Source: Prescottella subtropica
Lineage (GTDB): Bacteria; Actinomycetota; Actinomycetes; Mycobacteriales; Mycobacteriaceae
Assembly: GCF_005434945.1 (NCBI RefSeq)
Contig: NZ_SKCH01000001.1
Coordinates: 62,001 to 126,000, forward strand
DNA: 64,000 nucleotides
Reading direction: 5' to 3'
The notes under the pieces were generated by a model, which saw only the letters and a program-made list of their open reading frames with translations, was not told the origin of the DNA and made no database searches. Shown here piece by piece: positions 19,499 through 54,320 of this stretch (its first letter is position 1; the number at the start of each line of letters is the position of its first letter). The translations under genes were made by a program, and so were the position numbers.

Positions 19499-20776
19499 AT
19501 GGAACCCTGGTCTCCCGCGCAGGTCGCGGCCGCGGCACCCGATGCGGCGTCGCTGGCGGCGGCGCGGTCGCTGGCATCGAAGTGGTCGGACCTGGGTGGC
19601 GACGACGTCGCCCTGTGGGGGTCGTGCCGGGGCAGCGGGAAGACGCCGTACCGGGCTGCGGTCGATCTGACGGGACCCGCGTACCGGTGTTCGTGCCCGA
19701 GCCGCAAGTTCCCGTGCAAACATGCGCTCGGCCTGCTGCTGTGCTGGTCGGAAGGCCGGATCCCGGCCGGGACGGCCCCCGAGTTCGTCACCGACTGGCT
19801 CACCGGACGGGCCGCGCGGGCCGCCGCGACACCCGTCGCCGACGCCGCCCCGGATCCCGCCACGGCCGAGCGTCGCACCGACCGGATCGCCGCGGGTCTC
19901 GACGAGTTGGACCGCTGGCTGACGGACCGGATCGTCGCCGGTCTCGGCTCGGTCTCCCACGACGCCGCAGCCTACGACGCGATCGCCGCCCGTATGGTCG
20001 ACGCGCAGGCCCCCGGTGTCGCCGCCACGCTGCGGTCCCTGCCCGCGCTGGTCGCGTCCGACTCGGACTGGCCGGCGCCGCTGCTGGCCGCGTACGCACG
20101 CCTGCACCTGCTGATCCGTGCGTTCCGGGACCGTGACCGGCTGCCCGACGCGTTGAACCACACCGTCGCAACACATCTCGGCGTGCCGGTGCGCGCCGAC
20201 GACGTCCGCGCTGCACCAGCGATCCGGGACCACTGGCGGGTGCTGGCGGTTCGCACCACCGAGGAGGGCCGGTTGATCGCCCGCCGGACGTGGCTGCTCG
20301 GACGCGACACGCGACGCTGGGCACTGCTCCTCGATTTCGCACACGGTAGCGCCCAATTCTCCACGGCAGCACCGATTCCCGGGACCGTTGTGGACGCCGA
20401 CCTGCACTACTATCCCGGTGCGGCACCGCTGCGCGCGCTCCTGGGTACCCGGCACGACGCCCCGAGACCGTGCCCCGCGCCACCGGCCACCGACCTCGAC
20501 ACCGCCCTCGACGGCTACACTGCCGCCCTGGCCGCCGACCCGTGGCTGCGAGCATGGCCGATGCTGCTCGCCGACGTCACCCCCACCGTCACCGCAGGCG
20601 TCTGGCACGTCGTCGACACGGCCGGACGCGCCCTCCCGGTCGGCGGCGGCGACGCGTCCCGTTGGCGGCTGCTGGCGGTGTCCGGTGGGCATCCGGTGAC
20701 GGTGTGCGGCGACTGGGACGGCTCCACCCTGATCCCGGTCTCCGTGTTCGATGCGGGGGCGGTGGTCGCGGCATGA
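19499..20776 (+). CDS. SWIM zinc-finger protein of the MoxR-VWA cassette
   Basis: A 425-residue protein, first gene of a five-gene coupled operon. A SWIM-type zinc motif CxC-x6-CxH is formed by C64, C66, C73 and H75 (RCSCPSRKFPCKH). The remaining 350 residues are alpha/beta with many Trp/Arg and no recognised catalytic motif. SWIM domains bind zinc and mediate nucleic-acid or protein contact. The ATG at 19499 is preferred; an upstream in-frame reading adds little. Its stop overlaps the next start as ATGA. SWIM proteins recur beside MoxR/VWA genes in many bacteria, but the role is not known. Confidence 0.85.
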   Translation: MEPWSPAQVAAAAPDAASLAAARSLASKWSDLGGDDVALWGSCRGSGKTPYRAAVDLTGPAYRCSCPSRKFPCKHALGLLLCWSEGRIPAGTAPEFVTDWLTGRAARAAATPVADAAPDPATAERRTDRIAAGLDELDRWLTDRIVAGLGSVSHDAAAYDAIAARMVDAQAPGVAATLRSLPALVASDSDWPAPLLAAYARLHLLIRAFRDRDRLPDALNHTVATHLGVPVRADDVRAAPAIRDHWRVLAVRTTEEGRLIARRTWLLGRDTRRWALLLDFAHGSAQFSTAAPIPGTVVDADLHYYPGAAPLRALLGTRHDAPRPCPAPPATDLDTALDGYTAALAADPWLRAWPMLLADVTPTVTAGVWHVVDTAGRALPVGGGDASRWRLLAVSGGHPVTVCGDWDGSTLIPVSVFDAGAVVAA

Positions 20777-22188
20777 ACCGCCCCTATCCGGAAAAACTCG
20801 CTGCGGCAGCCCTTCTCGGCACCGCACGCTCGACGCTACCCCTGACCGAACTGCACACCGCGTCGGCGGCAGAGGTGCTGGACGCCGATCCCGCGACGAC
20901 ACTGCTCGCGGCCGCGGCGCTCGAGTCGGCTTTCCTGTCCGGTGCCGCCGTCCCCACCACGGTGCCGGTTCCGGCGCCCGCCCCGACCGATCCGCGGCCG
21001 GCCCTGCCGGATGCGGCGGTCGAACGGCTACGCTCGCTGCTCGTCGTGGATTCGTCGTTGATTCCCGAATGGTTTTCGGCGGCAGCCGGTTTCCGTCCCT
21101 CGACGCATCTGCTGGTGGAGGTGCTCGAGGCCGCCCTGCGCCGCACCGCGCGCCGGGACCGGCTGGTGGAGTTGGCCGGACCGCGTGGGCAGTGGCTCGC
21201 CGCCCGCAACCCGGACTGGGCGCCGCTGCGTCTGCCCGACCCGTCGGACGACGAGGACTGGCGACACGGCACCCCCGCCGTCCGGTTGCTCTGGTTCGCG
21301 GCGCTGCGGCGTACCGACCCGGCCGCCGCCACCGCGCTCCTCGCTACCGCATGGACGTCCGAGAAAGCAGACATGCGGGCCACTCTCCTGGCGGCGCTCG
21401 CGGACGGCCTCGGTGCCGGCGACGAATCCCTGCTCGAGCGGGCCCTCGACGACCGCGGCCAGCGGGTCCGGCAGACAGCGGTCGGACTGCTGGCACGCCT
21501 GCCGGGGTCCGCTTTCGGACAGCGGATGGCGCAGCGGCTGCGGGACTGGGTGTCGGTCTCCGGCACCGTCGTGACCGTCACGCTGCCCGACGTCCAGGAC
21601 GACGCCGCCCGCCGCGACGGTCTCGACGAGCGGACCGCCCGCCGTCCGGACGCACTGCTCACCGCGGCCGTGCAGGCGGCGCCGCTGTCGGTGTGGGCGG
21701 ATCTCGGGGTCTCCACGGAGTCGTTGCCGCACATCACCGTTGCCGAACCGTTCACCACCGCCACCGAGATCGCGTGGTCGACGGCCGTCGCCGTGCAGGG
21801 CGACACCGACTGGGCGCTCGCACTGCTGCGCCGGGACGGCACCGTCACCGCCCCCGTCGCCCGGCACCTGCCGCGGGACGTCGTCGTGGCACGTCTGCTC
21901 GCCACCCCGGACGGCGCGGTACCCGACGCGAACCTGCTCGAGGCGCTGCCCGCGCCGTGGCCGCATCACGTGGCCGCCGCCGTCCTCGGCGCGGTGTACG
22001 CGGCGCGGGCCCCGCTCGCCGAGTTGCGGTATCCCATCGATCTGCTCGGACATCGGGCGCCGTTCGAGTTCCAGGACGCCCTGTCCGAGGCCGCCACCCG
22101 CGCCGGGCACCTCGATCGGCTCGCCTTGTTCGCGGCCGCCGCCGACATCCTCACCCACCGCCGACACCTGCATCAGGAGCTGACATGA
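20773..22188 (+). CDS. DUF5691 family protein
   Basis: A 471-residue protein, second gene of the cassette, coupled by ATGA overlaps at both ends. The N-terminus reads YPEKLAAAALLGTARSTLPL, typical of DUF5691. The centre (about residues 170-240) has HEAT-like alpha repeats (RLLWFAALRRTDPAAATALLATAW, ADMRATLLAALADGLGAGDE, RVRQTAVGLLARLPGSAFG). It has no catalytic motif, so it is likely a scaffold for other cassette proteins. The extent of the helical repeats is estimated by eye. Confidence 0.82.
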   Translation: MNRPYPEKLAAAALLGTARSTLPLTELHTASAAEVLDADPATTLLAAAALESAFLSGAAVPTTVPVPAPAPTDPRPALPDAAVERLRSLLVVDSSLIPEWFSAAAGFRPSTHLLVEVLEAALRRTARRDRLVELAGPRGQWLAARNPDWAPLRLPDPSDDEDWRHGTPAVRLLWFAALRRTDPAAATALLATAWTSEKADMRATLLAALADGLGAGDESLLERALDDRGQRVRQTAVGLLARLPGSAFGQRMAQRLRDWVSVSGTVVTVTLPDVQDDAARRDGLDERTARRPDALLTAAVQAAPLSVWADLGVSTESLPHITVAEPFTTATEIAWSTAVAVQGDTDWALALLRRDGTVTAPVARHLPRDVVVARLLATPDGAVPDANLLEALPAPWPHHVAAAVLGAVYAARAPLAELRYPIDLLGHRAPFEFQDALSEAATRAGHLDRLALFAAAADILTHRRHLHQELT

Positions 22189-23306
22189 CCGACACCGTTT
22201 CCGTCGAGACCGCCGAGCCTGCCGAACCCGCCCTGCTGCGCCCGCACGCCGAGCAGCAGTACGCCGGTGAGCTGGCGGCACTCGCCGCGGCCGACGACCG
22301 GCCCCGGCCGCCGTCGTGGCGGCTGTCGCCGCAGGCGGTGGTGACGTATCTGCTCGGGGGGACTCTGCCCGACGGCACCGTGATCTCCCCGAAGTACATC
22401 GGCCCGCGCCGGCTGATGGAGGTCGCGGTCGCGACTCTCGCCACCGACCGGGCGCTGCTGCTGCTCGGGGTGCCGGGCACCGCGAAGACGTGGGTGTCCG
22501 AGCATCTGGCGGCGGCAATCTCCGGGGAGTCGACGCGGCTCGTGCAGGGCACCGCGGGCACCGCGGAGGAGGCCGTCCGGTACGGCTGGAACTATGCGCG
22601 CCTGCTCGCGGAAGGTCCGTCGGAGGCCGCGGTGGTGCCGTCGCCGGTGCTGACCGCGATGCGGGACGGTGCGATCGCCCGCGTCGAGGAACTGACCCGC
22701 ATGCCCGCCGACGTGCAGGACGCGCTCATCACGATCCTGTCGGAGAAGACGCTGCCGGTGCCCGAGCTCGGCACCGAGGTGCAGGCGGCGAAGGGCTTCA
22801 ACGTCATCGCCACCGCCAACGACCGGGACCGCGGCGTCAACGAGCTGTCGTCGGCGCTGCGCCGCCGCTTCAACACCGTCGTGCTGCCACTGCCCGCGTC
22901 CGCGGACGACGAGGTCGCGATCGTGGCGCGCCGTGTCGAACAGCTCGGCGGCGCACTGGAACTACCGCCCGTCCCGGCGGCCGCGGAGGAGATCCGCCGC
23001 GTCGTCACCGTGTTCCGGGAGTTGCGTGACGGGGTGACCGTCGACGGCCGCACCAGGGTGAAGTCGCCGTCGGGCACGCTGTCGACGGCGGAGGCCATCT
23101 CGGTGGTCACCAACGGTCTCGCGTTGGCCGCGCACTTCGGGGACGGCACCCTGCGTGCGGGGGACGTCGCGGCCGGGATCCTCGGCTCGGTCCTCAAGGA
23201 TCCGGTCGCCGACCGCGTGGTGTGGACCGAATATCTCGAGGCCGTCGTGCGGCACCGCAGCGACTGGGACGACTTCTACCGGGCGTGCCGCGAGGTGACC
23301 GGGTGA
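22185..23306 (+). CDS. MoxR-type AAA+ ATPase
   Basis: A 373-residue AAA+ ATPase of the MoxR group. Walker A GVPGTAKT is at residues 95-102. The Walker B region is AIARVEEL, with paired acidic residues, followed by the helix-2-insert-like PADVQDALITILSEK. Sensor 1 is the Asn in NVIATAND, and the arginine finger region is ELSSALRRRFN. MoxR ATPases act as chaperones that remodel or metallate targets, usually with a VWA partner (RavA-ViaA, NorQ-NorD, CbbQ-CbbO are precedents). Here the VWA protein is encoded two genes downstream. The start overlaps the previous stop, and the stop overlaps the GTG of the next gene. Confidence 0.93.
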   Translation: MTDTVSVETAEPAEPALLRPHAEQQYAGELAALAAADDRPRPPSWRLSPQAVVTYLLGGTLPDGTVISPKYIGPRRLMEVAVATLATDRALLLLGVPGTAKTWVSEHLAAAISGESTRLVQGTAGTAEEAVRYGWNYARLLAEGPSEAAVVPSPVLTAMRDGAIARVEELTRMPADVQDALITILSEKTLPVPELGTEVQAAKGFNVIATANDRDRGVNELSSALRRRFNTVVLPLPASADDEVAIVARRVEQLGGALELPPVPAAAEEIRRVVTVFRELRDGVTVDGRTRVKSPSGTLSTAEAISVVTNGLALAAHFGDGTLRAGDVAAGILGSVLKDPVADRVVWTEYLEAVVRHRSDWDDFYRACREVTG

Positions 23307-25498
23307 CCACAGTGCAGGTCCGGGTGTTCGGCGTCCGGCACCACGGGCCGGGGTCGGCGCGGGCGGTGCTGCGGGCGTTGGACGCGTTCGAGCCGGATAC
23401 CGTCCTCATCGAGGGCCCGTCCGACGCCGACGCCCTCGCCCCGCTCGCCCTCGACGACGACCTGCGCCCACCGGTGGCACTGCTCGGGTATGCGGCGAAC
23501 GAGCCTGCGCGGGCGGCGTTCTGGCCGTTGGCCGGGTTCTCCCCGGAGTGGCAGGCGCTGCGCTGGGCTCTGCACCACGACGCCGACGTCCGCTTCTGCG
23601 ATCTGCCGGCGGCACTCGCGCTGGCCGCGGACCGTGCCCCCGACGCCGACCGGCCGGATCCGTTGACCGCGCTGGCCGCCGCGGCCGGCTACGACGACTT
23701 CGAACAGTGGTGGGACACCGTCGTCGAATCCCGCTGCCCCGGTGAGGATGCCGATCCATCGGAGGCCTTCGGCGCGATCACCGACGCGATGGCGGTGCTG
23801 CGTGAGGGCCACGACCTCGACGAGCACACCGCCCGCCGCGAGGCCCACATGCGGCAGGTGCTGCGGGCCACGATCAAGGCCGGGGCGCTGAAGGTCGCGG
23901 TGGTGTGCGGGGCCATGCACGCACCCGCACTCGCCGGCAAGCTCGGCCCGGCCGCGCCGGACGCCCGGCTGCTGCGCGGACTACCGAAGGTGAAGGCGTC
24001 ACTCACATGGGTGCCGTGGACGCATTCCCGGCTGTCGGTGGCGTCCGGCTACGGTGCGGGCATCGTCTCCCCCGGCTGGTACGAGCACCTGTTCACCGCC
24101 GGCGACCACCCGACGGCCCGCTGGTTCACGACGGTGGCGCGGGTACTGCGCAACGAGGACCTGCCGGTGTCCAGTGCGCACGTCATCGAGGCCGTCCGGC
24201 TCGCGGACACGCTTGCGGCACTGCGGGATCGACCGCTGCCCGGCCTCGAGGAGGTTACCGAGGCCACCCGGGCGGTGCTGTGCGACGGCGACGACCTGCT
24301 GCTCGACCTGGTGACCCGGCGGCTCGTCGTCGGCGAGGCGCTCGGCGACGTTCCCGCATCCGCACCGACCGTCCCCCTCGACACCGATCTGCAGGCCAGG
24401 TCGAAGTCGTTGCGGCTCAAGCGTTCCGCCGCTGCGAAGGAACTGAACCTGGATCTGCGGACCGACCTCGACCGGCAGCGGTCGCAGCTGCTGCACCGGC
24501 TGCGACTGCTCGACGTGGACTGGGCGGAACCCGCCCGATCGACGGTGCGGTCGGCCGGCACGTTCCGGGAGACGTGGAAGCTGCGGTGGGAGCCGGAACT
24601 CGCGGTCGCCGTCGTCGAGGCGGCCCGCTGGGGAACCACCGTCGAGTCCGCCGCGGACACGGTGGTCCGGGACCGGGCCGCGCGACCGGACGTCACCCTC
24701 GGCGAGGTCACCGCACTGCTCGAACAGTCACTGCTCGCGGATCTGCGCGACGCCGTCACCGACCTGCTGGCCGCTGTGGACGCGGCCGCCGCCCTCGACC
24801 ACGACGTCGCGCACCTGATGGCGGCCCTGCCCCCGCTGGTGCGGACGCTGCGCTACGGCGACGTGCGCGGCACCGACCTGTCCGCCCTCGACGCGGTGGT
24901 CGATGCGCTGCTGGTGCGGATCTGCGCGGGCCTGCCCGCCGCCGTCACCGGCCTCGACACCGACGCCGCGGACGCCCTGCGCGCCGCCCTCGACGACGTG
25001 CACGCCGCCGTGACACTGCGCGACGATCCGGCGTCCACGAGGCGCTGGCTGGGCACGCTCGAGACGCTGTCGCGGCGCGACGACGTCGACGGCCTGCTCA
25101 CCGGCCGCACCGTGCGCCTGCTGCGCGACGTGGGCCGACTCGACACGGCCGCCACCACCGTCCGGGTGGGGCGGGCACTGTCGGCGGGTGTCGCCGCGGC
25201 CGCGAAGGCCCGCTGGATCGACGGGTTCGCCGGCGGCAGCGGCCTGCTGTTGGTCCACGACCGGGAACTGCTCGGGCTCGTCGACGCGTGGGTGTCCGGA
25301 CTGCACGCCGACGAGTTCCTCGACGCACTGCCGGCGCTGCGACGCACGTTCGGCGGGTTCGGCCCGGCGGAACGCCGCACCCTCGGCGACATCGTCCGCG
25401 GCGGGACCCGTGCCGCCACCGGCGATCTCGCCCTCGACACCGACCGCGGCAGGCGGGCCCTCGCCGCCACCGCCCTGATCCTGGGGGTTCCGGCATGA
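23303..25498 (+). CDS. DUF5682 family protein
   Basis: A 731-residue protein, fourth gene of the cassette, starting with GTG in a GTGA overlap. The N-terminal third has VRHHGPGSAR (residues 11-20), IEGP (36-39) and further HH/Glu-containing strands (VVCGAMHAPAL, SLTWVPWTHSRLS). Such Gly-His/Glu patterns recall the EreA/ChaN/TraB hydrolase-like superfamily, but that is inference. The remainder is helical. It is found elsewhere with MoxR and VWA partners. It is the largest protein in the operon and the most likely effector or enzymatic component. Confidence 0.82.
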   Translation: MTTVQVRVFGVRHHGPGSARAVLRALDAFEPDTVLIEGPSDADALAPLALDDDLRPPVALLGYAANEPARAAFWPLAGFSPEWQALRWALHHDADVRFCDLPAALALAADRAPDADRPDPLTALAAAAGYDDFEQWWDTVVESRCPGEDADPSEAFGAITDAMAVLREGHDLDEHTARREAHMRQVLRATIKAGALKVAVVCGAMHAPALAGKLGPAAPDARLLRGLPKVKASLTWVPWTHSRLSVASGYGAGIVSPGWYEHLFTAGDHPTARWFTTVARVLRNEDLPVSSAHVIEAVRLADTLAALRDRPLPGLEEVTEATRAVLCDGDDLLLDLVTRRLVVGEALGDVPASAPTVPLDTDLQARSKSLRLKRSAAAKELNLDLRTDLDRQRSQLLHRLRLLDVDWAEPARSTVRSAGTFRETWKLRWEPELAVAVVEAARWGTTVESAADTVVRDRAARPDVTLGEVTALLEQSLLADLRDAVTDLLAAVDAAAALDHDVAHLMAALPPLVRTLRYGDVRGTDLSALDAVVDALLVRICAGLPAAVTGLDTDAADALRAALDDVHAAVTLRDDPASTRRWLGTLETLSRRDDVDGLLTGRTVRLLRDVGRLDTAATTVRVGRALSAGVAAAAKARWIDGFAGGSGLLLVHDRELLGLVDAWVSGLHADEFLDALPALRRTFGGFGPAERRTLGDIVRGGTRAATGDLALDTDRGRRALAATALILGVPA

Positions 25499-26697
25499 GC
25501 ACACCGGTCGACGACGAACGCCTGCGCCGCTGGCGACTGCTCCTCGGGGACGCCGCCGAGGAGTCGACGGGCACGCTGGCGTCGGCATCGGACACCGCGA
25601 TGGACGCGGCCCTGTCCGCGCTGTACGACGACCGCGGGACCGTCGACGGGAAGACCGGGCGCTCCGCCGGGCTCGGCGGGTCGGCGCCGCGGGTGGCGCG
25701 CTGGCTCGGCGACATCCGCACCTACTTCCCGGTGTCGGTGGTGCAGGTGATGCAACGCGACGCGATGGACCGGCTCGGGCTCACCCAACTGCTGCTCGAG
25801 CCGGAACTGCTCGAGGCCGTCGAACCGGACGTGCACCTGGTGGGGACGCTGCTGAGCCTGAACCGGGTGATGCCCGAGGCCACCAAGGCGACGGCCCGGA
25901 CGGTGGTGGAGACCGTCGTCCGGCAGCTCGAGGAACGCCTGGCCCGTGCCACCCGGTCCGCGGTGACCGGGGCCCTGAACCGGGCGTCCCGCACCACCAA
26001 CCCGAAACTGCGGGACCTCGACTTCCACCGCACCATCCGCGCCAACCTGCAGCACTACCTGCCCGAGTACCGGACGGTGGTGCCGGAGAAGCTGATCGGC
26101 TACGGGCGCCGCTCGCAAGCCGTGCAGCGGGACGTGGTCCTCGCGATCGACCAGTCCGGGTCGATGGCGTCGAGCGTCGTGTACGCGTCCGTGTTCGGTG
26201 CGGTCCTCGCATCGATGCGGGCGCTGCGCACGTCACTGGTCGTGTTCGACACCGCGGTGGTCGACCTGACCGACAAACTGGCCGACCCGGTCGACGTGCT
26301 GTTCGGCACCCAACTCGGCGGCGGCACCGACATCAACCGGGCCATCGCCTACAGCCAGTCACTGATCACCCGACCCACCGACTCGCTGTTCGTGCTCATC
26401 TCCGACCTGTACGAGGGCGGGATCCGCGCCGAGATGCTGTCCCGCGTCGCCGCGATGCAGGCCGCCGGCGTCCAGGTGGTGGTGCTGCTGGCCCTGTCCG
26501 ACGACGGCGCCCCCGCCTACGACCGCGACAACGCGGCCTCGCTTGCCGCACTGGGAGTTCCGGCGTTCGCCTGCACCCCGGACCGGTTCCCGGAACTCCT
26601 GGCACTCGCCCTCGAACGCGGCGATGTGGGTGCGTGGGCGCACCGCAGCGATCAGCGACTCGACCAGTCCTCGGAACCACGCTCGGTGCGTCCCTGA
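25495..26697 (+). CDS. VWA domain protein, partner of the MoxR ATPase
   Basis: A 400-residue protein, last of the five-gene cassette. The N-terminal 200 residues are helical. The VWA domain begins about residue 214 with the MIDAS motif D219-x-S-x-S223 (AIDQSGSM), followed by the conserved Thr in GGGTDINRA and the Asp in LISDLYEGG, so metal binding is expected to be intact. CoxE/ViaA-type VWA proteins of this size act with MoxR ATPases. The 3' end (26652-26697) overlaps, on the opposite strand, the coding end of the degenerate kinase gene. Start ATG overlaps the preceding TGA. Confidence 0.93.
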   Translation: MSTPVDDERLRRWRLLLGDAAEESTGTLASASDTAMDAALSALYDDRGTVDGKTGRSAGLGGSAPRVARWLGDIRTYFPVSVVQVMQRDAMDRLGLTQLLLEPELLEAVEPDVHLVGTLLSLNRVMPEATKATARTVVETVVRQLEERLARATRSAVTGALNRASRTTNPKLRDLDFHRTIRANLQHYLPEYRTVVPEKLIGYGRRSQAVQRDVVLAIDQSGSMASSVVYASVFGAVLASMRALRTSLVVFDTAVVDLTDKLADPVDVLFGTQLGGGTDINRAIAYSQSLITRPTDSLFVLISDLYEGGIRAEMLSRVAAMQAAGVQVVVLLALSDDGAPAYDRDNAASLAALGVPAFACTPDRFPELLALALERGDVGAWAHRSDQRLDQSSEPRSVRP

Positions 26698-28235
26698 TCG
26701 CTCGGCCAGTGAGGTTCCCCCCACACCGGCTCGGGCCGCGACGACGCGGCCCCGGCGAGTGGCCCCGGTTTCGGTGCGGCCCGTCGGCGAGGGATGCGTG
26801 CGCGAAGCCATATCGTCCAGTGCTCGAGCCGCTCGAGCTGCTCCCGTCGACGCGCTCGCCGTTGCGCCTGGCCCAGTGCCGCGTCCACACTGCCGAACAG
26901 ACCGTTCACGTCGATCGGCGGCAGAACGACCCGATCGAGCAGCCCGTCCATCGACCTGAACTGCTCCGCCCCGGACAGCGCCAGCAGGCTGTCGACCCAC
27001 GAATGCGATCGATCACCGAGGACCGTGTCCTGAAGCTTCTGCACATCGAGGCCCGTCACGCACCTCGACACCGACCCTAGATCCGGCACGTCGACGAACT
27101 GCACCGCCGGCGCGTCGAAGACCAGTACGATCTCACTCTCCTGCTCGTCGGTGCCGTGCTGGTTCGCTGCGATCAAACGGAACTGCCCGGACTGCCTCAG
27201 TTGCAGCTGTACGAAGTTACCCGCACCGATACCGAACGTACGGGTCTCGCCCCACGGGGTCTCGAGGGTCAGGGACCGGCGCCCCGTCACCTCCCATGAG
27301 ATCTCGACTGTCTGCCCACGCATCCCCCGGATCGGGTTCACCACGAACGAGCCGATGGACGGTGGCCGTGACAACGCCTGCACTCGCCCGTGGAAGTACT
27401 GGTACCAGGCGTCCGCGGTCGGTCGAGCGGACACGTCCGACCCCAGTGCCGCTGCCACCATGCCGATTCCGGCGTCGTCGAGACGCCCGGTCAGCCCGGA
27501 CAGCTTCTCGTCGACCGAAGCACCGGACGTGAGGATGTCGTGGAACAGAATCCCCATCTTGAACCGATCGGTGGCAGACGTCTGCGGAACTTGCCCGTGC
27601 CGACACTCGGGCGGCCGGGTTCCCGGCGCATGCGGTTGCTCGAACGTCGGTGACGATTCCACCCGCACCGACTCCACCCCGGTCAACATCGCCTGCGACG
27701 GCGCCGTGCAGTGCACCATCCCGACCTGATCGACAGCACCGACGACGACACCCCGAGCATGCAGGAAATCCACCACACGAGCGATACCCGCGCACACCGC
27801 CATGCGGGTACGTACGTCCGCTGCATCGACCACCGAGCCGGCACCCGCCCGTCTGGCACGGTCCGGTTCGACAAGCCAGTCCACGGTCCGCAACGTCGAC
27901 ACGGGGCCTGTGGACTGGACGATCGCACCCTCGACGAATCGATCAGGTATCGCGGTCGTCACGTATCCGACCGGCGCTCCTTCGTCCTCCACGATCGCCA
28001 ACGGCCATGCCGCGAGGGAATCGAGCAGCCGCCGGTCACTGTCGGACAGTTTCCGGCGAAAATCGATGAGCGCCTCCAGATTCGCCACCGACCCCGAGCC
28101 CGCAACCTGCAGATCGTTGTATGCACATGCGGGTGTACCGGTGAGCGCTGCCGGTGTCCTGATCTCGTGGACCGTCCCGAACGGGCCCTGGTTCCACTCA
28201 CGCACGAACGTCAACTGCGAACGGTCGATCGACAC
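26652..28235 (-). CDS. degenerate protein-kinase-like protein with Ig-like domain
   Basis: A 527-residue protein. Residues 1-290 resemble a kinase fold: a Gly-rich loop GPFGTVHEI (17-25), an interlobe segment, and an HRD-like loop H159-A-R-G-V-V-V-G-A-V-D-Q-V-G. There the catalytic Asp of GDLKPxN is Ala167 and the Asn is replaced by Gly172, so it should be a pseudokinase. Residues about 303-385 form an Ig-like beta-sandwich (IGSFVVNPIRGMRGQTVEISWEV). The C-terminus is Arg-rich. GTG at 28235 has a GGAGGAAGG ribosome site; an ATG at 28280 is an alternative that overlaps the previous gene by 14 bp. It is the last gene of a four-gene operon. Confidence 0.75.
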   Translation of the reverse strand: MSIDRSQLTFVREWNQGPFGTVHEIRTPAALTGTPACAYNDLQVAGSGSVANLEALIDFRRKLSDSDRRLLDSLAAWPLAIVEDEGAPVGYVTTAIPDRFVEGAIVQSTGPVSTLRTVDWLVEPDRARRAGAGSVVDAADVRTRMAVCAGIARVVDFLHARGVVVGAVDQVGMVHCTAPSQAMLTGVESVRVESSPTFEQPHAPGTRPPECRHGQVPQTSATDRFKMGILFHDILTSGASVDEKLSGLTGRLDDAGIGMVAAALGSDVSARPTADAWYQYFHGRVQALSRPPSIGSFVVNPIRGMRGQTVEISWEVTGRRSLTLETPWGETRTFGIGAGNFVQLQLRQSGQFRLIAANQHGTDEQESEIVLVFDAPAVQFVDVPDLGSVSRCVTGLDVQKLQDTVLGDRSHSWVDSLLALSGAEQFRSMDGLLDRVVLPPIDVNGLFGSVDAALGQAQRRARRREQLERLEHWTIWLRARIPRRRAAPKPGPLAGAASSRPEPVWGEPHWPSDQGRTERGSEDWSSR

Positions 28236-28266
28236 CGTCTGCCTTCCTCCACGGCCACCGCCGGCT

Positions 28267-28893
28267 CTACCCGACGGCATAGTTCACCTCCCCGATATGT
28301 GCGGTCAACCGATCCGACTCGGCCCACTCCCGCGCAGTGAAGTCGGCGCCGGTGACGACGTGTCCGAGAAGCGAATCGCACAACAGCCGAACAGGATCCG
28401 AATCGCTACCGTCGATCGCCACCGTGCGCGCGGCGTGCCACGCGGTATGCAGACGAGGCAGGCCCTCGGCCGCGTCGGACCCGATCGCGAACACGATCGT
28501 CACCCAGCCCGGACCCGACTCGTCCACTGGTGGGACACCGTCGTCTCCGGCACCGTCCACCAGGACGACCCGCACACCGTGTTCGGACACGACCGTCGGT
28601 CCCCCTGCGTCGGCGGCCCCGATACCCGCAAGCATCGTCTCCGGCTTGCCGAGGACCGTCACACCGTCTCGCGCACTGTCGACGACCGACTGCCGGCCGG
28701 CACCTTCGACGACAACCCTGAGCAGGCTCTCCAACCGTGGGCTGACCAGGAATTGGTCCCCCAGCCACCGGAGCACGGGCACGGCGGACCCCACTGCGGA
28801 ACCGTCAGCGCCGGAATCCTTCAGCGGTAGGTGCAGTAACAGTACGAACCGTTCGATCGGTTCGACGTCGATCTCGAACTTCGTCATCTGCAC
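28267..28893 (-). CDS. uncharacterised protein, possibly a degenerate VWA-like fold
   Basis: A 208-residue cytoplasmic protein between the DUF4407 and pseudokinase genes. It begins MQMTKFEIDVEPIERFVLLLHLPLKDSG and contains GGPTVVSEHGVRVVLVDGAG and PGWVTIVFAIGSDA. The alternation of hydrophobic strands and helices could be a VWA-like alpha/beta fold without a usable MIDAS, but similarity is weak and I give no function. It starts 13 bp after the DUF4407 stop and ends 31 bp before the preferred kinase start, so it belongs to the same operon. Confidence 0.65.
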   Translation of the reverse strand: MQMTKFEIDVEPIERFVLLLHLPLKDSGADGSAVGSAVPVLRWLGDQFLVSPRLESLLRVVVEGAGRQSVVDSARDGVTVLGKPETMLAGIGAADAGGPTVVSEHGVRVVLVDGAGDDGVPPVDESGPGWVTIVFAIGSDAAEGLPRLHTAWHAARTVAIDGSDSDPVRLLCDSLLGHVVTGADFTAREWAESDRLTAHIGEVNYAVG

Positions 28894-28906
28894 AGCCGAG
28901 CCGCCG

Positions 28907-30412
28907 TCAATTGAAGGTCGTCCGGTCGACAGGAGCCGTCACACGGCCGTCGTCGGCACCCGACAGCCACACGGGGCCGACCGCCCCGGTAGGTGCCGAT
29001 GTTCCCGTGGCGTGCGCCCGGTCACCGGGCTTCGCCAACCGGACGCCGGCGGGCGCGGTCGCCTCGTCCCGCAACGACCTCGACCACTCACGCATCCGCT
29101 CTGCGGACACCCGCTTGGCGTGCGCCGACCACTCCACGAGGGCTTCCTCGACCAGCTCTGCCTGATGCTCGACGACCGTGTCGTTGATCTTGAGGATCGT
29201 CGCGTGCTGCTGCTCGATCCGTGACTTCTCGGCGTCGAGTTCGGCCTGCCTGCGCAGATCGTCGACCTGCCTGCGCTTCTCGACTTCCTCGGTGGCCTCC
29301 CGCGCTTCCTCGGTGTCGAACTGTTCGACCGCGATGTCGTAGGAGGTGGGCGTCCCGAAGTTGGACATCACCTTGAACAGAACCGGGAGGATCTCCAAGC
29401 ACATGAACAGCAGCATCACCATCAGATGGGCGTTGGCGGCGGTCGCGTTGCCCGCCGTCAGGTCACCGAGCGCCTTCAGCCGCGAGATGATGCCGGTGTT
29501 CGCCTGCTCCAGTTCCCAGCTGCTGTCCTGTGCGCTGCGGATCTGGTCGCGCAACTGGTCCACCTTGCGCTCCACGATCGGAAGCTCCACCTCCGCATCG
29601 GCGATGGCCTTCTTGCTCTCCTCGAGAAGAGAGCCTTCGATGCTGTGGACGTAATCGACCGACTCCTGCTGCTTCGCGGCGATCTCGCCTCGCGTGGCCT
29701 CGAAACGCTGCTCGGCGTCCGACGCCAGCCGTTTCTTCTCGACACACATCGCGGCGCAGCCCGCGACACCGGTTCCAGCCGTACCCTCTTCTTCCGCAAC
29801 CGCACCGGCACGGAGTTCGTCCGCTTTCGCCTTCTCCGTGTCCGCCCGCGCCTCGAGCTTCTCGACATCGGCAGCGATCGCCTTGACCCGCGGGTTGGCC
29901 GACGGATCGGCGGTGGGACCGGTGTTGATCATGCTGCGGAGCTCGTACATCCGCGTCTCCGCGGTCGCCAGATCCTCGTTTGCCGTCGACTCGTTGATCG
30001 ACGACCGCAGTTCCTCCTGCGCCACCAGGATGTTCTTGTTCAGCTGCGCCGAGATCTCGGTGTCGAACACCTTGAGCATCAGTGGAGTCGAGATGACCGC
30101 ACCGATGACGAACGCCAGTGCCACTCGGGGCAGGGCCATCGCGATCGCACGCCAGCCCTTCTCCTTCGCGAGACCGATCACGAGCAGACGGTCCAGGTTG
30201 AGGATCGCCACACCCCACACCAAACCTGCCAGCACACAGACGAACCCACTCGCCACACCGGTGATCGACAACGCGTACGCCGCCGACATCGCCGCGAAAC
30301 CTGCGGTCGTCAACAGGACCGCACCCATCGCGGTCTGCTTCGCAACCGATCCCGGAACGTGTTTCAGGACGTCCACGCGGGCGCCCGCGATGCGCGCGAG
30401 GAGGTAATTCAT
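28907..30412 (-). CDS. DUF4407 membrane protein with long coiled coil
   Basis: A 501-residue membrane protein. Three hydrophobic segments lie near the N-terminus (AVLLTTAGFAAMSAAYALS, GFVCVLAGLVWGVAILNL, ALAFVIGAVISTPLML). A long charged coiled-coil region follows (about residues 130-320, with VEKLEARADTEKAKADELRAG). It includes CAAMC, a Cys pair. A fourth membrane segment is HLMVMLLFMCLEILPVLFKVM, then a second coiled-coil tail rich in Glu/Arg/Gln. DUF4407 proteins are of unknown function. ATG at 30412 overlaps the stop of the upstream membrane gene (ATGA) after an AAAGGA ribosome site. Confidence 0.85.
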   Translation of the reverse strand: MNYLLARIAGARVDVLKHVPGSVAKQTAMGAVLLTTAGFAAMSAAYALSITGVASGFVCVLAGLVWGVAILNLDRLLVIGLAKEKGWRAIAMALPRVALAFVIGAVISTPLMLKVFDTEISAQLNKNILVAQEELRSSINESTANEDLATAETRMYELRSMINTGPTADPSANPRVKAIAADVEKLEARADTEKAKADELRAGAVAEEEGTAGTGVAGCAAMCVEKKRLASDAEQRFEATRGEIAAKQQESVDYVHSIEGSLLEESKKAIADAEVELPIVERKVDQLRDQIRSAQDSSWELEQANTGIISRLKALGDLTAGNATAANAHLMVMLLFMCLEILPVLFKVMSNFGTPTSYDIAVEQFDTEEAREATEEVEKRRQVDDLRRQAELDAEKSRIEQQHATILKINDTVVEHQAELVEEALVEWSAHAKRVSAERMREWSRSLRDEATAPAGVRLAKPGDRAHATGTSAPTGAVGPVWLSGADDGRVTAPVDRTTFN

Positions 30413-31083
30413 TTCGATCCTTTCGAGGGGCCGACGACCCGGGGCTGCGCGCGTCGCACAGCGGACTGCGGGGAATACAGTGCAACTGCGATCGGAATCC
30501 CGATGTACAGCAGTGCAATACAGAGCATCGTCGGCAGCGCTGTCGGCATCTGCCACAGCCGCAGATAGCCGACGACGGAATAACAGGGCTCCGACACGGC
30601 CGTTCCTACGACCCCTTGGATCCATTGACACGTCGTGTACGACGGTATCCCCGGGGACGGACCGTAGATCGACTCCGGAATCCCGGCCAGCAACAGTGGC
30701 TGCCCGGACGCCTCGGCCGCGACGAACGGTGTCGCCATGGCGTGTAGGTCCCCGCGGAAGAACACCTGCGCGACGGGTACCGAGAGGACAGCCGCCAGCA
30801 GCGCCAACCGCACGTACCACCACAGTTTCGGCTGCCGTACCGCCCGCACACCCGCATCAGGATCCGGCGGCACGAACCTCCGACGCACAGTGCGGAGAAT
30901 CCGCCGGTACATCACGGCCCCCGCAACTCCTGCGAGGTATCCGAGCGGCCACCAGGTCACACTCGCTGCCGCCACCGCGGACACCACCGGCATCCCGGCG
31001 ACGACCATCAGGCAGATATCGAAGGAATCCCCCAGGCGTCGCTGGAGACTCACCCACCGCGCTCCCCGGAACACGTCACGCAC
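30409..31083 (-). CDS. uncharacterised membrane protein, first gene of the DUF4407 operon
   Basis: A 224-residue protein with four likely membrane segments: two near residues 24-60, one at LWWYVRLALLAAVLSVPVAQVFF, and one at ALPTMLCIALLYIGIPIAVAL. Between the last two is an extracytoplasmic loop with two Cys (YTTCQWIQG and SEPCYSV) that could form a disulfide. The C-terminus is basic. GTG at 31083 has GGGAGGGA nine bases upstream. Its stop overlaps the DUF4407 start. No family is recognised; it is probably an envelope subunit of the same complex. Confidence 0.72.
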   Translation of the reverse strand: MRDVFRGARWVSLQRRLGDSFDICLMVVAGMPVVSAVAAASVTWWPLGYLAGVAGAVMYRRILRTVRRRFVPPDPDAGVRAVRQPKLWWYVRLALLAAVLSVPVAQVFFRGDLHAMATPFVAAEASGQPLLLAGIPESIYGPSPGIPSYTTCQWIQGVVGTAVSEPCYSVVGYLRLWQMPTALPTMLCIALLYIGIPIAVALYSPQSAVRRAQPRVVGPSKGSK

Positions 31084-31302
31084 AGCGATGGTCCCTCCCA
31101 GGTAATCGGCCGACAGTCGGTGAACAGCAGGAGTGCCCGAACCTGTGCCGTACCGATAGAGACCCCCACGCCGAGTACAGCACTCTACCGGCTCGGCTTC
31201 GCCGGTCTTCCCGCACAGCCCCGCGGAACCGTCACGCCCGCGTTATGGTGCAGATCACCACGGCCGGCCGCGGGGGTCGACCCGGAGCGAAGGGGAGCAG
31301 CA

Positions 31303-32070
31303 GTGGATATTCAGGGAACCGCGGCACTGGTCACGGGGGCGGCGTCGGGACTCGGTGCCGCGACCGCGAAGCGTTTCGCCGATGCGGGTGCCACCGTGTT
31401 CGGGTTGGATCTGGCGCAGTCCATCGAGCGGGCCGGCGACAAGGTGCCCGCGGGGGTGACGTTCCTGCCCACCGATGTCACGAGCGAGTCCGAGGTGCAG
31501 GCGGCGATCGACACGATCGGCGGGTCGGGGGTGCCGCTGCGCACCGTCGTCAACTGTGCGGGTGTCGGCTGGGCGGGCCGGATCCTGTCGAAGAACGGGC
31601 CGCACGATCTGGAGTTGTTCCGCACCGTCATCACCGTCAACCTGCTGGGCACGTTCAACGTGATGCGGCTGGCCGCCGATGCGATGCAGCATCTTCCGAC
31701 GGTGGACGATGCGGGCCAGCGTGGCGTCATCGTCAACACGGCGTCGGTGGCGGCGTTCGAGGGGCAGGTGGGGCAGATCGCGTACACCGCGTCCAAGGGC
31801 GGTGTGCACGCCATGACGATCACCGCGGCCCGCGATCTCGCGCAGGTCGGTATCCGTGTCAACACGATCGCCCCCGGCACCATCGACACCCCGATGCTCG
31901 CGGGCGTCACCGACGAGTACCGCAAGAACCTCGAGGCCGGGATCCCGTTCCCGTCACGCCTCGGCAAGCCGGACGAGTACGCCCAGCTGGCGCAGTTCCT
32001 CGTCGAGCACGACTACCTCAACGGCGAGACCATCCGCATGGACGGTGCCCTGCGCATGGCGCCGCGGTAG
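31303..32070 (+). CDS. short-chain dehydrogenase, 3-hydroxyacyl-CoA dehydrogenase-like
   Basis: A 255-residue classical SDR. The cofactor motif TGAASGLG follows MDIQGTAALV, D61-like acidic residues appear in TDVTSE, the NCAG motif is present, and the catalytic Ser-Tyr-Lys set is NTASVAAFEGQVGQIAYTASKGG. The overall pattern resembles HSD17B10/type-II 3-hydroxyacyl-CoA dehydrogenases, so fatty-acid or branched-acid oxidation is plausible. GTG at 31303 follows GAAGGGGAG. It is divergent from the DUF4407 operon across a 219-bp promoter region (31084-31302) in which I see no clear operator. Confidence 0.88.
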   Translation: MDIQGTAALVTGAASGLGAATAKRFADAGATVFGLDLAQSIERAGDKVPAGVTFLPTDVTSESEVQAAIDTIGGSGVPLRTVVNCAGVGWAGRILSKNGPHDLELFRTVITVNLLGTFNVMRLAADAMQHLPTVDDAGQRGVIVNTASVAAFEGQVGQIAYTASKGGVHAMTITAARDLAQVGIRVNTIAPGTIDTPMLAGVTDEYRKNLEAGIPFPSRLGKPDEYAQLAQFLVEHDYLNGETIRMDGALRMAPR

Positions 32071-50847: not shown

Positions 50848-52719
50848 ATGTCTGCAACACGTGCGGCGGACGAGGCCGTGAACTGGTCCAGGATCGAGGA
50901 GCGGGCGTCGTCGGTGGCGCACCTGTTCGTCGAGCGGGTGGCGTCGACCCCGCGGGCGGAGGCCTTCCGTTTCCCCTACGGCGACAGCCCCGACGGCGGC
51001 TGGGCGAGTGTCACGTGGTCGGAGGTCGGGGACCGGGTCCGACGGCTCGCGGCCGGGCTGATCGCGCTCGGGGTCGAGCCCGAGCAGCGGGTCGCGGTCG
51101 CGTCGGCCACCCGGTACGAGTGGGTACTGGCCGATCTCGCGGTCATGTGTGCCGGCGCCGCGACCACCACCGTCTACCCGACCACGACCGCGTCCGACGT
51201 GGCATACATCGTCGCGAACTCCGGTAGCCGGGTCGTCTTCGCCGAGAACGACACTCAGCTCGCGAAACTCCGGGAGCATCGTGCCGACCTGCCGGACGTG
51301 CGGTACGTCGTCCTCGTCGACGGCACCGCGCCCGACGACGGCTGGGTGATCGGGTGGGACGACCTCGAGCAGCGCGGCGACCGGTTGCTCGCCGATCGAC
51401 CGGACTGTGTCGCGGAGCGGATCGCCGGGATCGCATCCGACGACCTGGCGACGCTGATCTACACGTCCGGCACGACGGGCCGTCCGAAGGGAGTGCGGCT
51501 GACGCATGCGGCGTGGACGTACGAGGCGGCCGCGATCGACGCGGTCGGCATCCTCGACGCCGCCGACCTGCAATATCTGTGGCTGCCACTGTCCCACGTG
51601 TTCGGGAAGGTGCTGTTGACGCTGCCGCTGCAGATCGGGTTCGCGACGGCCGTCGACGGCCGCGTCGACCGGATCGTCGACAATCTCGCCGTGGTGCGGC
51701 CGACGTTCATGGGTGCGGCGCCCCGGATCTTCGAGAAGGCGCACGCCCGCATCGTCGGAACGGTGGAAGACGAAAGCGGCGTGAAGAAGCGGATCTTCGA
51801 CTGGGCGATGCGGGTGGGGCGGGCGGTGTCGAAGGCGCGCCAGTCCGGGAAACCGGTGTCACGCCGGCTGTCCCTCGAGAATACGCTGGCGGACCGGTTG
51901 GTGTTCCGGACGATCCGGGAACGGTTCGGAGGCCGGTTGAAGTTCTTCATCTCCGGGTCGGCCGCACTGGATCGTGATGTAGCGCAATGGTTCGACGCGG
52001 TCGGCATCGTGATCCTCGAGGGCTACGGGCTGACCGAGACCAGCGCCGCGTCCCTCGTCAACCGCCCGTACGCATACCGGTTCGGCACCGTCGGCCGGCC
52101 CCTTCCCGGAACCGAGGTGGCGATCGCGGACGACGGCGAGATTCTCGTCCGGGGCCCCGGGGTGATGAGCGGCTACCACCACAATCCCGACGCGACCGCT
52201 GACGCTCTCGACACCGACGGCTGGTTCCGCACCGGCGACATCGGCACGATCGACACCGACGGCTTCCTGCGCATCACCGACCGCAAGAAGGACATGTTCA
52301 AGACGTCCAACGGCAAGTACGTGGCGCCGTCGGCGATCGCCGCCATGTTCAAGGGGTTGTGCCCGTATGCCGGGGAGATCATCGTGCACGGCGAGGGCAA
52401 GTCGTACTGCGTAGCCCTGATCAGCCTCGACGGGGAAGCGATCATCGAGTGGGCCGCCGAGAACGGCATGGCCGACCGTCCGCTGCGCGAGATCGCCTCG
52501 GCCGGAGCGACCGTCGCGATGATGAGCTCCTACGTCGACCGACTGAACGCCGGCCTGAACCGCTGGGAGCAGATCAAACGGTTCACGATCCTCGAACGCG
52601 AACTGAGCGTCGAGAACGGCGAGATCACCCCGAGCATGAAACTCAAACGCACGAAGGTGGTCGACCACTTCTCCGAGAAGATCAGCGAACTGTACGGCCC
52701 AGCAGGACCATCGCGGTAG
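50848..52719 (+). CDS. long-chain fatty-acid-CoA ligase (FadD15-like)
   Basis: A 623-residue class I adenylate-forming enzyme. The AMP-binding motif YTSGTTGRPKG lies near residue 205. Later blocks are LPLSHVFGK, GYGLTETSA and WFRTGDIGTIDTDGFLRITDRKKDMFKTSNGKYVAP, the last being typical of long-chain FadD15-type ligases. The catalytic Lys is near the end in ITPSMKLKR. It activates free fatty acids to acyl-CoA. It overlaps the next, convergent gene on the minus strand by 38 bp (52682-52719). Confidence 0.93.
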   Translation: MSATRAADEAVNWSRIEERASSVAHLFVERVASTPRAEAFRFPYGDSPDGGWASVTWSEVGDRVRRLAAGLIALGVEPEQRVAVASATRYEWVLADLAVMCAGAATTTVYPTTTASDVAYIVANSGSRVVFAENDTQLAKLREHRADLPDVRYVVLVDGTAPDDGWVIGWDDLEQRGDRLLADRPDCVAERIAGIASDDLATLIYTSGTTGRPKGVRLTHAAWTYEAAAIDAVGILDAADLQYLWLPLSHVFGKVLLTLPLQIGFATAVDGRVDRIVDNLAVVRPTFMGAAPRIFEKAHARIVGTVEDESGVKKRIFDWAMRVGRAVSKARQSGKPVSRRLSLENTLADRLVFRTIRERFGGRLKFFISGSAALDRDVAQWFDAVGIVILEGYGLTETSAASLVNRPYAYRFGTVGRPLPGTEVAIADDGEILVRGPGVMSGYHHNPDATADALDTDGWFRTGDIGTIDTDGFLRITDRKKDMFKTSNGKYVAPSAIAAMFKGLCPYAGEIIVHGEGKSYCVALISLDGEAIIEWAAENGMADRPLREIASAGATVAMMSSYVDRLNAGLNRWEQIKRFTILERELSVENGEITPSMKLKRTKVVDHFSEKISELYGPAGPSR

Positions 52720-54313
52720 CACGGGCGGCCCGACGGTCCGTCTTGCCGCCCGGACCGAGTTCGAGCCGGTCGACGGTGACGACGTACTCGGGCAGGTATT
52801 CGGCGGTCGTGCCCCGCGACCGCAGCCACGCGGCGAGCGCGCCGGTATCGAGGGTGTCGTTGTCCGCGAGAACCACGACGGCACACACGCGTTCACCGAA
52901 GATCTCGTCGGGCACCCCGACGACCGCGACATCCGACACCGCCGGATGGCCGTGGACGAGGTCCTCGATCTCCACGACGGAAATGTTCTTCCCGCCCCGG
53001 ATGACGAAGTCCGCCGTGCGGCCCACCACCCGCAACCGGCCGGCGCCGTCGATCTCCACCACATCACCGAGCAGCATCGCGCCGTCGTCGGTGTACAGCT
53101 CGGCGTTCGCCGCCGGGTCGTCCCAGTATCCGGCGGACACCAGGGGACCCGATACCGCCGGCTGTCCACGACGGAGCCCGCCGGTGCACGGTGTCCCGGT
53201 ATCGTCGAGCACCCGTACCCGCATCGACTCGAGCAGGTGCCCGCACGTGCGCAGCCGGGTGTCTACATCGTCGGCCAGGGTCGTGCGGCTCACCCCGCCC
53301 GCCTCGTTCGACCCGTAGAACTGCAGGACGGTGGCACCGGTCCGTTCCTCGAACTCGCGGGCCGCGTCGTACGGGACGGGCTCACCACCGGTGTACAGGA
53401 TCCTCAGGCTCGACAAGTCACGATGTCGGGCCGCATCGGACCGCAACAACATCTTGAACTGGGTACTGACACAACACAGCACGGTCACCCGTTCGCGTTC
53501 GATGAGCATCGCGGTCTCGTCCACGTCGAATCGCGCGGTCACCACGGTCGGGACCCCGAGCAGTGCCGGCAGGAAGTGCGCCGACCACAACCCGAACCCG
53601 AACGGTGCCGGCACCACCGAGCAGATGACGTCGCCAGGCCCGATGTCGGCGCCCCACATCGCCTCCCGGGCGAACTCCACCCACTTGCGTTCGGTGTGCG
53701 CCACCACCTTCGGCAACCCGGTGGTGCCGGACGTCGAATTGAGCAGTGTCACATCCGATGTGGTGAATGTGCCGGTGGCACCGACATCACCCGCACTGCC
53801 GAGATGCTGCCGGACCACCGACCCGCTGCTCTCGTCGACGATCACCACTTCAGTCGGGGACACGTCGTACCCGCGTAGTTCGTCGACGAGTTCCTGCCAT
53901 GTACGGCCCCGAATCGATGCCGCGGTCACCAGAACCGTGGCATCGGTGCGGCGCATGATGTGCGAGATCTCCCGCACCCCCGACCGCACCCCGATGGCAG
54001 TCGCGATCCGGCCGGCCCGGAAACATCCACACAGCGCCGCATGCACACCCGCAGTGTCCGGCAGCAGTACCGCCACCCGGTCACCCGGACCTGCTGCCGT
54101 CCACCGCAACTCGACGGCGACAGCATCGGCCAGCTCGTCGTATCCACGCCACGTGGTCGTGCCGGCACTGCCGACGAATGCCGGACGCTCCGGGATCCGT
54201 CGCGCCCACGCCCGCACCACATCACTGACGGAAACGTCGGCGTAGGACTCGGGTGCGGTCGCGAAGGTACCGGGGGTGAGGAAGTCGGGCGTCGTGTCAC
54301 TGTCGATTGTCAT
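52682..54313 (-). CDS. acyl-CoA synthetase of the Liv-linked catabolic operon
   Basis: A 543-residue class I adenylate-forming enzyme, distinct from the long-chain type. The P-loop-like motif is STSGTTGLPKV; other marks are LYTGGEPVPYD, FYGSNEAGG and GDVVEIDGAGRLRVVGRTADFVIRGGKNIS. A Lys near the C-terminus (LGPGGKTDRRAA) is the likely catalytic one. It ends the operon, following livF by 7 bp, so it probably makes the CoA thioester of the imported acid. ATG at 54313 is preferred. The 3' end overlaps the convergent fadD gene. Confidence 0.88.
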   Translation of the reverse strand: MTIDSDTTPDFLTPGTFATAPESYADVSVSDVVRAWARRIPERPAFVGSAGTTTWRGYDELADAVAVELRWTAAGPGDRVAVLLPDTAGVHAALCGCFRAGRIATAIGVRSGVREISHIMRRTDATVLVTAASIRGRTWQELVDELRGYDVSPTEVVIVDESSGSVVRQHLGSAGDVGATGTFTTSDVTLLNSTSGTTGLPKVVAHTERKWVEFAREAMWGADIGPGDVICSVVPAPFGFGLWSAHFLPALLGVPTVVTARFDVDETAMLIERERVTVLCCVSTQFKMLLRSDAARHRDLSSLRILYTGGEPVPYDAAREFEERTGATVLQFYGSNEAGGVSRTTLADDVDTRLRTCGHLLESMRVRVLDDTGTPCTGGLRRGQPAVSGPLVSAGYWDDPAANAELYTDDGAMLLGDVVEIDGAGRLRVVGRTADFVIRGGKNISVVEIEDLVHGHPAVSDVAVVGVPDEIFGERVCAVVVLADNDTLDTGALAAWLRSRGTTAEYLPEYVVTVDRLELGPGGKTDRRAARATAMVLLGRTVR

Positions 54314-54320
54314 GGTCACC

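Follow-up and report, generated by a model that had tools for sequence, protein, structure and literature searches.

Can two gene cassettes that meet tail to tail, with shared coding sequence at their ends, be taken as parts of one system? This question is raised by the locus at positions 19499 to 31083 of a 64,000-nucleotide stretch of the Prescottella subtropica genome (contig NZ_SKCH01000001.1, positions 62,001 to 126,000; called the window here). On the plus strand, cassette 1 encodes a SWIM zinc-finger protein, a DUF5691 protein, a MoxR ATPase, a DUF5682 protein and a VWA protein. On the minus strand, cassette 2 encodes a small membrane protein (TM2), a DUF4407 membrane protein, a protein named U here (an unknown in earlier work) and a pseudokinase (PK). 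The nine reading frames, the four 4-nt junctions of cassette 1 and the 46-bp overlap between the VWA and PK genes (26652-26697), reported in a first-pass annotation, are all present in the sequence; the VWA frame stops at 26697 on the plus strand and the PK frame at 26652 on the minus strand. That annotation had also joined the cassettes into one stress or conflict system, which the current work does not bear out. The explanation favoured here, with moderate confidence, is that the cassettes are two independent units: an operon of the YehL type, and an acquired islet encoding a scaffold module free of catalysis.

Distribution of the two cassettes

DUF5682 matches were found in 40 of 151 relatives, and stretches taken from 20 of these 40 served as cassette 1 loci. 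Cassette 2 genes lie beside cassette 1 in none of the 20. Fourteen other full or partial cassette 2 loci (L111-L118, L128, L151, L152, L157-L159) were collected, eight by a scan of genome contigs with a DUF4407 alignment, one by a plasmid search and five by a survey of the family; cassette 1 genes occur in none of the stretches examined. Of the 401 genomes surveyed in the family, 12 contain U (11 without G590, left out of the cassette 2 count because its locus, L160, holds no cassette gene) and 140 contain DUF5682. Both units are present in eight genomes (G000, G392, G465, G475, G483, G510, G519, G556), on different contigs in five, more than 4 Mb apart in two (G519, G556) and adjacent only in the window. 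Within the genus, DUF5682 was found in 6 of the 13 other genomes, and PK, DUF4407 and U match none of these 13.

The independent distribution of the cassettes makes it very improbable that they form a joint stress or conflict system, in which the MoxR/VWA remodeller would act on the DUF4407-pseudokinase membrane complex or be gated by it. Such a system would fit the adjacency and overlap in this genome and the presence of vWA folds in both units. DUF5682 is also commoner in genomes with cassette 2 (8 of 11) than in those without it (132 of 390), which counts against independence of the units; these counts are not corrected for genus, and shared genera may explain the enrichment. Against the joint system stand the empty neighbourhoods at all other loci, the convergent rather than co-directional arrangement of the cassettes, and the origin of their junction by insertion, described below.

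The tight packing itself is not unusual for this DNA. By our own gene calls, 4-nt junctions occur in 12 of the 46 same-strand neighbour pairs of the window and are common, and two of its nine convergent pairs overlap at their tails, by 46 and 38 bp, so that the 46-bp overlap is unremarkable. The second overlap lies between the genes at 50878-52719 and 52682-54340.

The junction behind the VWA gene

In the same-genus loci L094, L095, L096, L098 and L110, about 90-180 bp separate the VWA gene from a downstream short-chain dehydrogenase gene, which in the window stands at 31303-32070 on the plus strand (adh_short, E 9.6e-44). The junction is empty in five of the six same-genus genomes carrying cassette 1, and the sixth (G001) has a different insert. 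In the window, about 4.6 kb with four minus-strand genes separates the two. The ends of this islet (26651-31238) were placed by eye. The islet is seen in same-genus synteny, GC content and GC content at third codon positions (GC3); DNA similarity to L098, also followed by eye, ends near 26650 and restarts near 31239. The VWA protein of the window is 400 residues long and has a new ending; its counterparts in six same-genus relatives have 393-395. The GC content of the islet is 0.663 compared with 0.736 in cassette 1, and GC3 is lower in the islet too.

Because the similarity break, the new VWA ending and the lower islet GC are found at a junction that is insert-free in five relatives, insertion is the best explanation of the 46-bp overlap: the islet would have been inserted just behind the VWA gene, and the scar would consist of replaced last VWA codons. 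The overlap need not be a regulatory device, since another convergent pair of the window overlaps by 38 bp and, in G001, an unrelated insert also overlaps the VWA gene. If this reading is right, the arrival of a gene islet can leave behind overlapping coding ends that mimic functional coupling. The insert of G001 (L093:3969-7365) consists of four different genes, two of them with WxL/WxLIP-type Pfam matches below cut-off; the last of the four shares 20 bp with the end of the VWA gene (own gene calls). The site behind the VWA gene may be an insertion hotspot.

The islet was probably acquired horizontally. In a search for the target repeats of an insertion sequence, no shared repeat of at least 9 bp was found between the two islet end regions, and scans of viral contigs with DUF5682 and DUF4407 gave no relative. 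A phage origin of cassette 2 was considered and rejected: 15 of 50,697 phage records gave DUF4407 matches, N-terminal only, and all 15 are Lak megaphages of Prevotella. Plasmid carriage was likewise set aside, with DUF4407 matches in 2 of 72,556 records, one of which is the R. opacus copy.

The DUF4407-pseudokinase module and its relatives

Cassette 2 comprises TM2 (30409-31083), DUF4407 (28907-30412), U (28267-28887) and PK (26652-28235), all on the minus strand. DUF4407 is upheld by Pfam (E 5.4e-66); PK, U and TM2 have no Pfam match over cut-off, and PK has none at E 0.1. The genes themselves stand as first annotated, with two start sites (PK 28280, U 28893) that are probably too far upstream. 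PK probably begins at the GTG at 28235 (527 aa), behind a GGAGG and where its relatives also start, and U at the ATG at 28887; with these starts the small overlap between PK and U disappears.

Clear hydrophobic segments are found in DUF4407 (residues 32-50, 52-82, 88-117 and 323-352) and TM2 (three segments), and PK and U have none. In the envelope sensor proposed earlier, the Ig-like part belongs to PK and is probably cytoplasmic, because PK has no hydrophobic segment.

The name pseudokinase is borne out by the aligned motifs. The window protein shares 38% identity with the kinase of L071/L115 (two handles for one contig); its Lys, catalytic Asp and DFG-type Asp are all replaced, and a partial Gly loop is kept. 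The Gly loop, Lys, catalytic Asp, Asn and DFG-type Asp are intact in L113, L115, L128, L151, L152 and L159; these intact-motif relatives in neighbouring genera are natural comparators. In the Rhodococcus group (L111, L112 and L118 of Rhodococcus, with L157 and L158 of the same genus code, g23), the Gly loop, Lys, Asn and DFG-type Asp are lost and the catalytic Asp position is kept, so that the window and Rhodococcus-group kinases lost different residues. Of eight proteins searched (window, L071, L118, L152, L159, L111, L157, L128), L071/L115 alone exceeds the cut-off of Pfam Pkinase, at 50.8 bits; L152, L159 and L128 score below it, and L111, L157, L118 and the window give no Pkinase match. 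The tail of PK can be aligned with those of its relatives, which are Ig-like, and has no Pfam zinc ribbon or OB-fold match.

DUF4407, U and PK occur together in 12 copies (window, L111, L112, L113, L115, L118, L128, L151, L152, L157, L158, L159). Left out of this count are L114, with a kinase tail only and no U found, and L116 and L117, with TM2 and DUF4407 only. TM2, the usual partner of this DUF4407 type, stands beside it in 11 of the 12 copies by tblastn and was not found in L128, where the DUF4407 match starts only at residue 101. The TM2/DUF4407 pair can also stand alone, as in L116 (Smaragdicoccus) and L117 (a Nocardiaceae metagenome-assembled genome), both without U or PK matches.

In L113, L115, L151, L152 and L159, a vWA gene with the metal ion-dependent adhesion site (MIDAS) and a PP2C phosphatase gene were found by tblastn in front of TM2; Pfam confirmed the vWA in L071 and L152 and the PP2C in L071, L113 and L152. 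Instead of these two genes, the Rhodococcus group has GAP1-N2, DO-GTPase2, a vWA-TerF-like match below cut-off and TerD (Pfam for L118; tblastn to L118 for the other four). TerD matches also adjoin L113, L151 and L152, the neighbours of L152 being TerD, TerC/DUF475 and TerD. In all, 8 of the 12 copies have ter or GAP1/GTPase neighbours; none was found with the queries used at the window, L115, L128 and L159. The stress or conflict flavour given to the locus by the earlier annotation is borne out for cassette 2 by these neighbours of copies elsewhere, and one DUF4407 type is tied to ter and GAP1-type systems.

In the window, no tblastn match was found to the L118 GAP1 and DO-GTPase2, to the L113/L115 MIDAS vWA or to PP2C. 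The whole genome has one PP2C_2 match, about 35 kb beyond the window, and no match to the L071 vWA, a search without a positive control. A TerD-rich cluster with 8 of 10 TerD matches is present in the same genome on another contig (G000:C65:131070-146658), unlinked to the islet.

Kinase state and gene content vary together in the copies: PP2C was not found with any of the six dead kinases, and five of the six intact ones have both PP2C and vWA (Fisher p 0.015, for copies that are related). The kinase tree holds two changes of activity and one or two independent pairs. Trees built from fewer rows recovered a single origin for the dead kinases (support 85/82, 95/95, 67/75); a tree with the motif columns dropped did not recover it, and there it was not rejected (p-AU, approximately unbiased test, 0.35).

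U is predicted to have a vWA fold without the MIDAS metal site. The DxSxS motif is absent from the first 60 residues of all 12 U proteins and present in 10 of 10 vWA comparators; the structure alignment took in 6 of the 12. In a sequence comparison with solved structures, the sole match was over a short helix of three designed proteins and was not used. The U proteins make up a previously unannotated family, of MIDAS-less vWA by predicted fold.

Several known systems resemble cassette 2. The TerY-P triad is a hypothesised metal-sensing phosphorylation switch, credited to Anantharaman 2012 in an excerpt of PMC11090510. Like this triad, five cassette 2 relatives cluster a MIDAS vWA, a PP2C and a kinase, three of them beside ter genes. 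Unlike it, the window has neither MIDAS vWA nor PP2C and its kinase is dead; moreover, the tail of this kinase appears Ig-like where the triad has a zinc ribbon or OB-fold, and cassette 2 adds TM2, DUF4407 and the MIDAS-less vWA. In the third theme of the GAP1-N2 GTPase-centric systems, a kinase often with a beta-strand-rich domain is accompanied by PP2C and vWA, and the kinase and phosphatase are called catalytically active in the part of the source consulted (Kaur et al., PMC7159879). The five Rhodococcus-group copies likewise adjoin GAP1-N2 and DO-GTPase2 genes, but with a dead kinase and no PP2C found. Type III-A CoCoNuT operons, as excerpted from PMC11090510, carry a second TerY-like vWA with a partial MIDAS, the middle Thr missing. 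Cassette 2 relatives likewise combine, in a single operon, one vWA whose MIDAS is complete and another whose MIDAS is not; compared with the vWA described in that excerpt, U lacks any DxSxS and is barely recognisable as vWA by sequence.

We favour the following course of events. The ancestor of cassette 2 would have been a ter-associated module like TerY-P, with MIDAS vWA, PP2C, TM2, DUF4407, MIDAS-less vWA and a kinase with an Ig-like tail. In the window branch, the MIDAS vWA and PP2C genes would then have gone and the phosphate-transfer residues of the kinase would have been lost, if the direction of change is as supposed. As the likeliest mechanism, TM2 and DUF4407 would form a membrane platform, to which the dead kinase and dead vWA would bind, as well as to each other, as a cytoplasmic scaffold. 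In response to a ligand or to stress on the membrane, this scaffold would alter its shape and recruit or hold back a partner, without signalling by phosphorylation. More generally, and tentatively, a complete kinase/phosphatase/vWA switch may have turned, perhaps on two occasions, into a membrane complex without catalysis that signals by binding alone ('pseudo-TerY-P'), the pseudokinase and pseudo-vWA being kept alongside DUF4407 and TM2 once kinase activity, phosphatase and MIDAS vWA had gone; this we consider somewhat doubtful. If true, a bacterial phosphorylation switch that is without its enzyme pair and its vWA metal site would still be a conserved module.

The same losses could mean that cassette 2 is what is left of a TerY-P-like triad, now decaying and without a function. 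The MIDAS vWA and PP2C were not found, catalytic residues are lost, and three of the four genes have low coding scores. All four frames are open, however; the DUF4407 protein is still about 60% identical over about 450 residues to Rhodococcus copies, its best matches; and in five genomes of the Rhodococcus group a loss of this kind is stable next to GAP1/GTPase/TerD genes. Decay without function appears unlikely on this balance.

A further alternative, and a decidedly improbable one, is that cassette 2 works on its own as an anti-phage or anti-element module: the dead kinase and dead vWA would sense a phage product, and DUF4407 and TM2 would act on the membrane. In a PADLOC scan of the neighbours of three loci, helicase-type models match genes beside L071 and MzaC matches one beside L114. 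One copy is plasmid-borne, close to a restriction endonuclease. The kinases of L115 and L113, whose motifs are intact, show weak matches to defence kinases (mad6, E 1.9e-10 and 3.8e-7, respectively), and TerY-P-like modules with an OB-fold kinase are reported to be antiphage (excerpt of PMC11090510, citing Gao 2020). On the other side, the nine proteins of the window gave no PADLOC match at E 0.01 or better, the nearest being IetA on MoxR (0.013, 0.028), and the ter or GAP1 genes adjoining 8 of the 12 copies point elsewhere.

Further observations weigh against the independent scaffold module favoured here. The sequence similarity of U to vWA is weak, its hhalign E value moving from 4e-4 to 5.5e-3 with more rows, and contact among the four islet proteins is something that we infer. 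The link between dead kinase and absent PP2C is not established, because it amounts to one or two independent comparisons; L128 has intact kinase motifs, yet no vWA or PP2C in the stretch examined. TM2, U and PK are the genes with low coding scores, and the window copy has no close relative, which leaves some room for slow decay of a useless islet.

Two other proteins were observed near such modules. In one of the 12 copies, a DA1-like peptidase match (HELGH) with Cys pairs lies between U and the kinase (L115:12102-12878; Pfam on the same gene in L071, copies compared by tblastn). A Band_7/SPFH protein stands beside a TerY-P-like triad (L075:12323-14548); its C-terminal part appears by eye to be a vWA with a degenerate MIDAS, and it is a possible second dead-vWA protein.

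Cassette 1 as a YehL-type operon

By sequence homology, cassette 1 is a conserved operon related to E. coli yehLMP, and its domain names are upheld by Pfam over cut-off. It begins with the SWIM gene (19499-20776; SWIM, E 3.1e-6), the operon's first gene in relatives too, followed on the same strand by the genes for DUF5691 (20773-22188; E 2e-95), MoxR (22185-23306; AAA_5, E 5.5e-38, and also AAA_3), DUF5682 (23303-25498; E 2e-260) and VWA (25495-26697; VWA_CoxE, E 3.3e-53). MoxR is 41% identical to YehL (E 7.5e-75), the DUF5682 protein 29% to YehM (E 1.6e-41) and the VWA protein 39% to YehP (E 4.9e-81). The partnership of MoxR with VWA that was first proposed is supported by these homologies to YehL and YehP. 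In the explanation favoured here, cassette 1 is the form that the YehL-type MoxR/VWA operon takes in actinobacteria. The operon would supply an AAA+ remodeller and a VWA adaptor, together with the SWIM, DUF5691 and DUF5682 proteins.

The E. coli yehLMPQ cluster represents the YehL subfamily of MoxR (PMC3893208). MoxR, DUF5682 and VWA are homologous in both clusters, at E 1.6e-41 or better, and the E. coli K-12 cluster also holds a SWIM protein; the window protein has the SWIM domain and no BLAST similarity to YehQ. Cassette 1 differs in having SWIM first and in the addition of DUF5691. All five genes were found by tblastn in 15 of the 20 loci; in the other five (L100, L106, L107, L108, L109), SWIM and DUF5691 had no match over 40 bits. 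All four 4-nt junctions are kept in five of six same-genus loci; in the sixth (G008/L110), whose assembly is rated 79% complete, the frames are broken.

In the literature searched, DUF5682 and DUF5691 are named nowhere, and DUF4407, or at least two of yehL, yehM, yehP and yehQ together, seldom. Neither DUF5682 nor DUF5691 matched a solved structure by sequence at E 1, and a single-sequence model of DUF5682 residues 1-252 was too poor for use (predicted confidence score, pLDDT, 45).

Ten DUF5682 members share the invariant residues R12, H13, H14, E37, P39, G203 and H206. These residues resemble the GxxH...E...GxxH motifs of TraB/Tiki proteins. With hhalign, a single TraB protein was not aligned with DUF5682 at the last motif (0.1%, E 0.68), and a profile of seven TraB-family proteins was aligned there over 33 columns (E 0.0014, probability 18%, against 0.1% for a PP2C control). 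As a lead only, the DUF5682 N-terminus (window 23303-24058) may be TraB/Tiki-like, a possible enzyme domain in YehM-type proteins.

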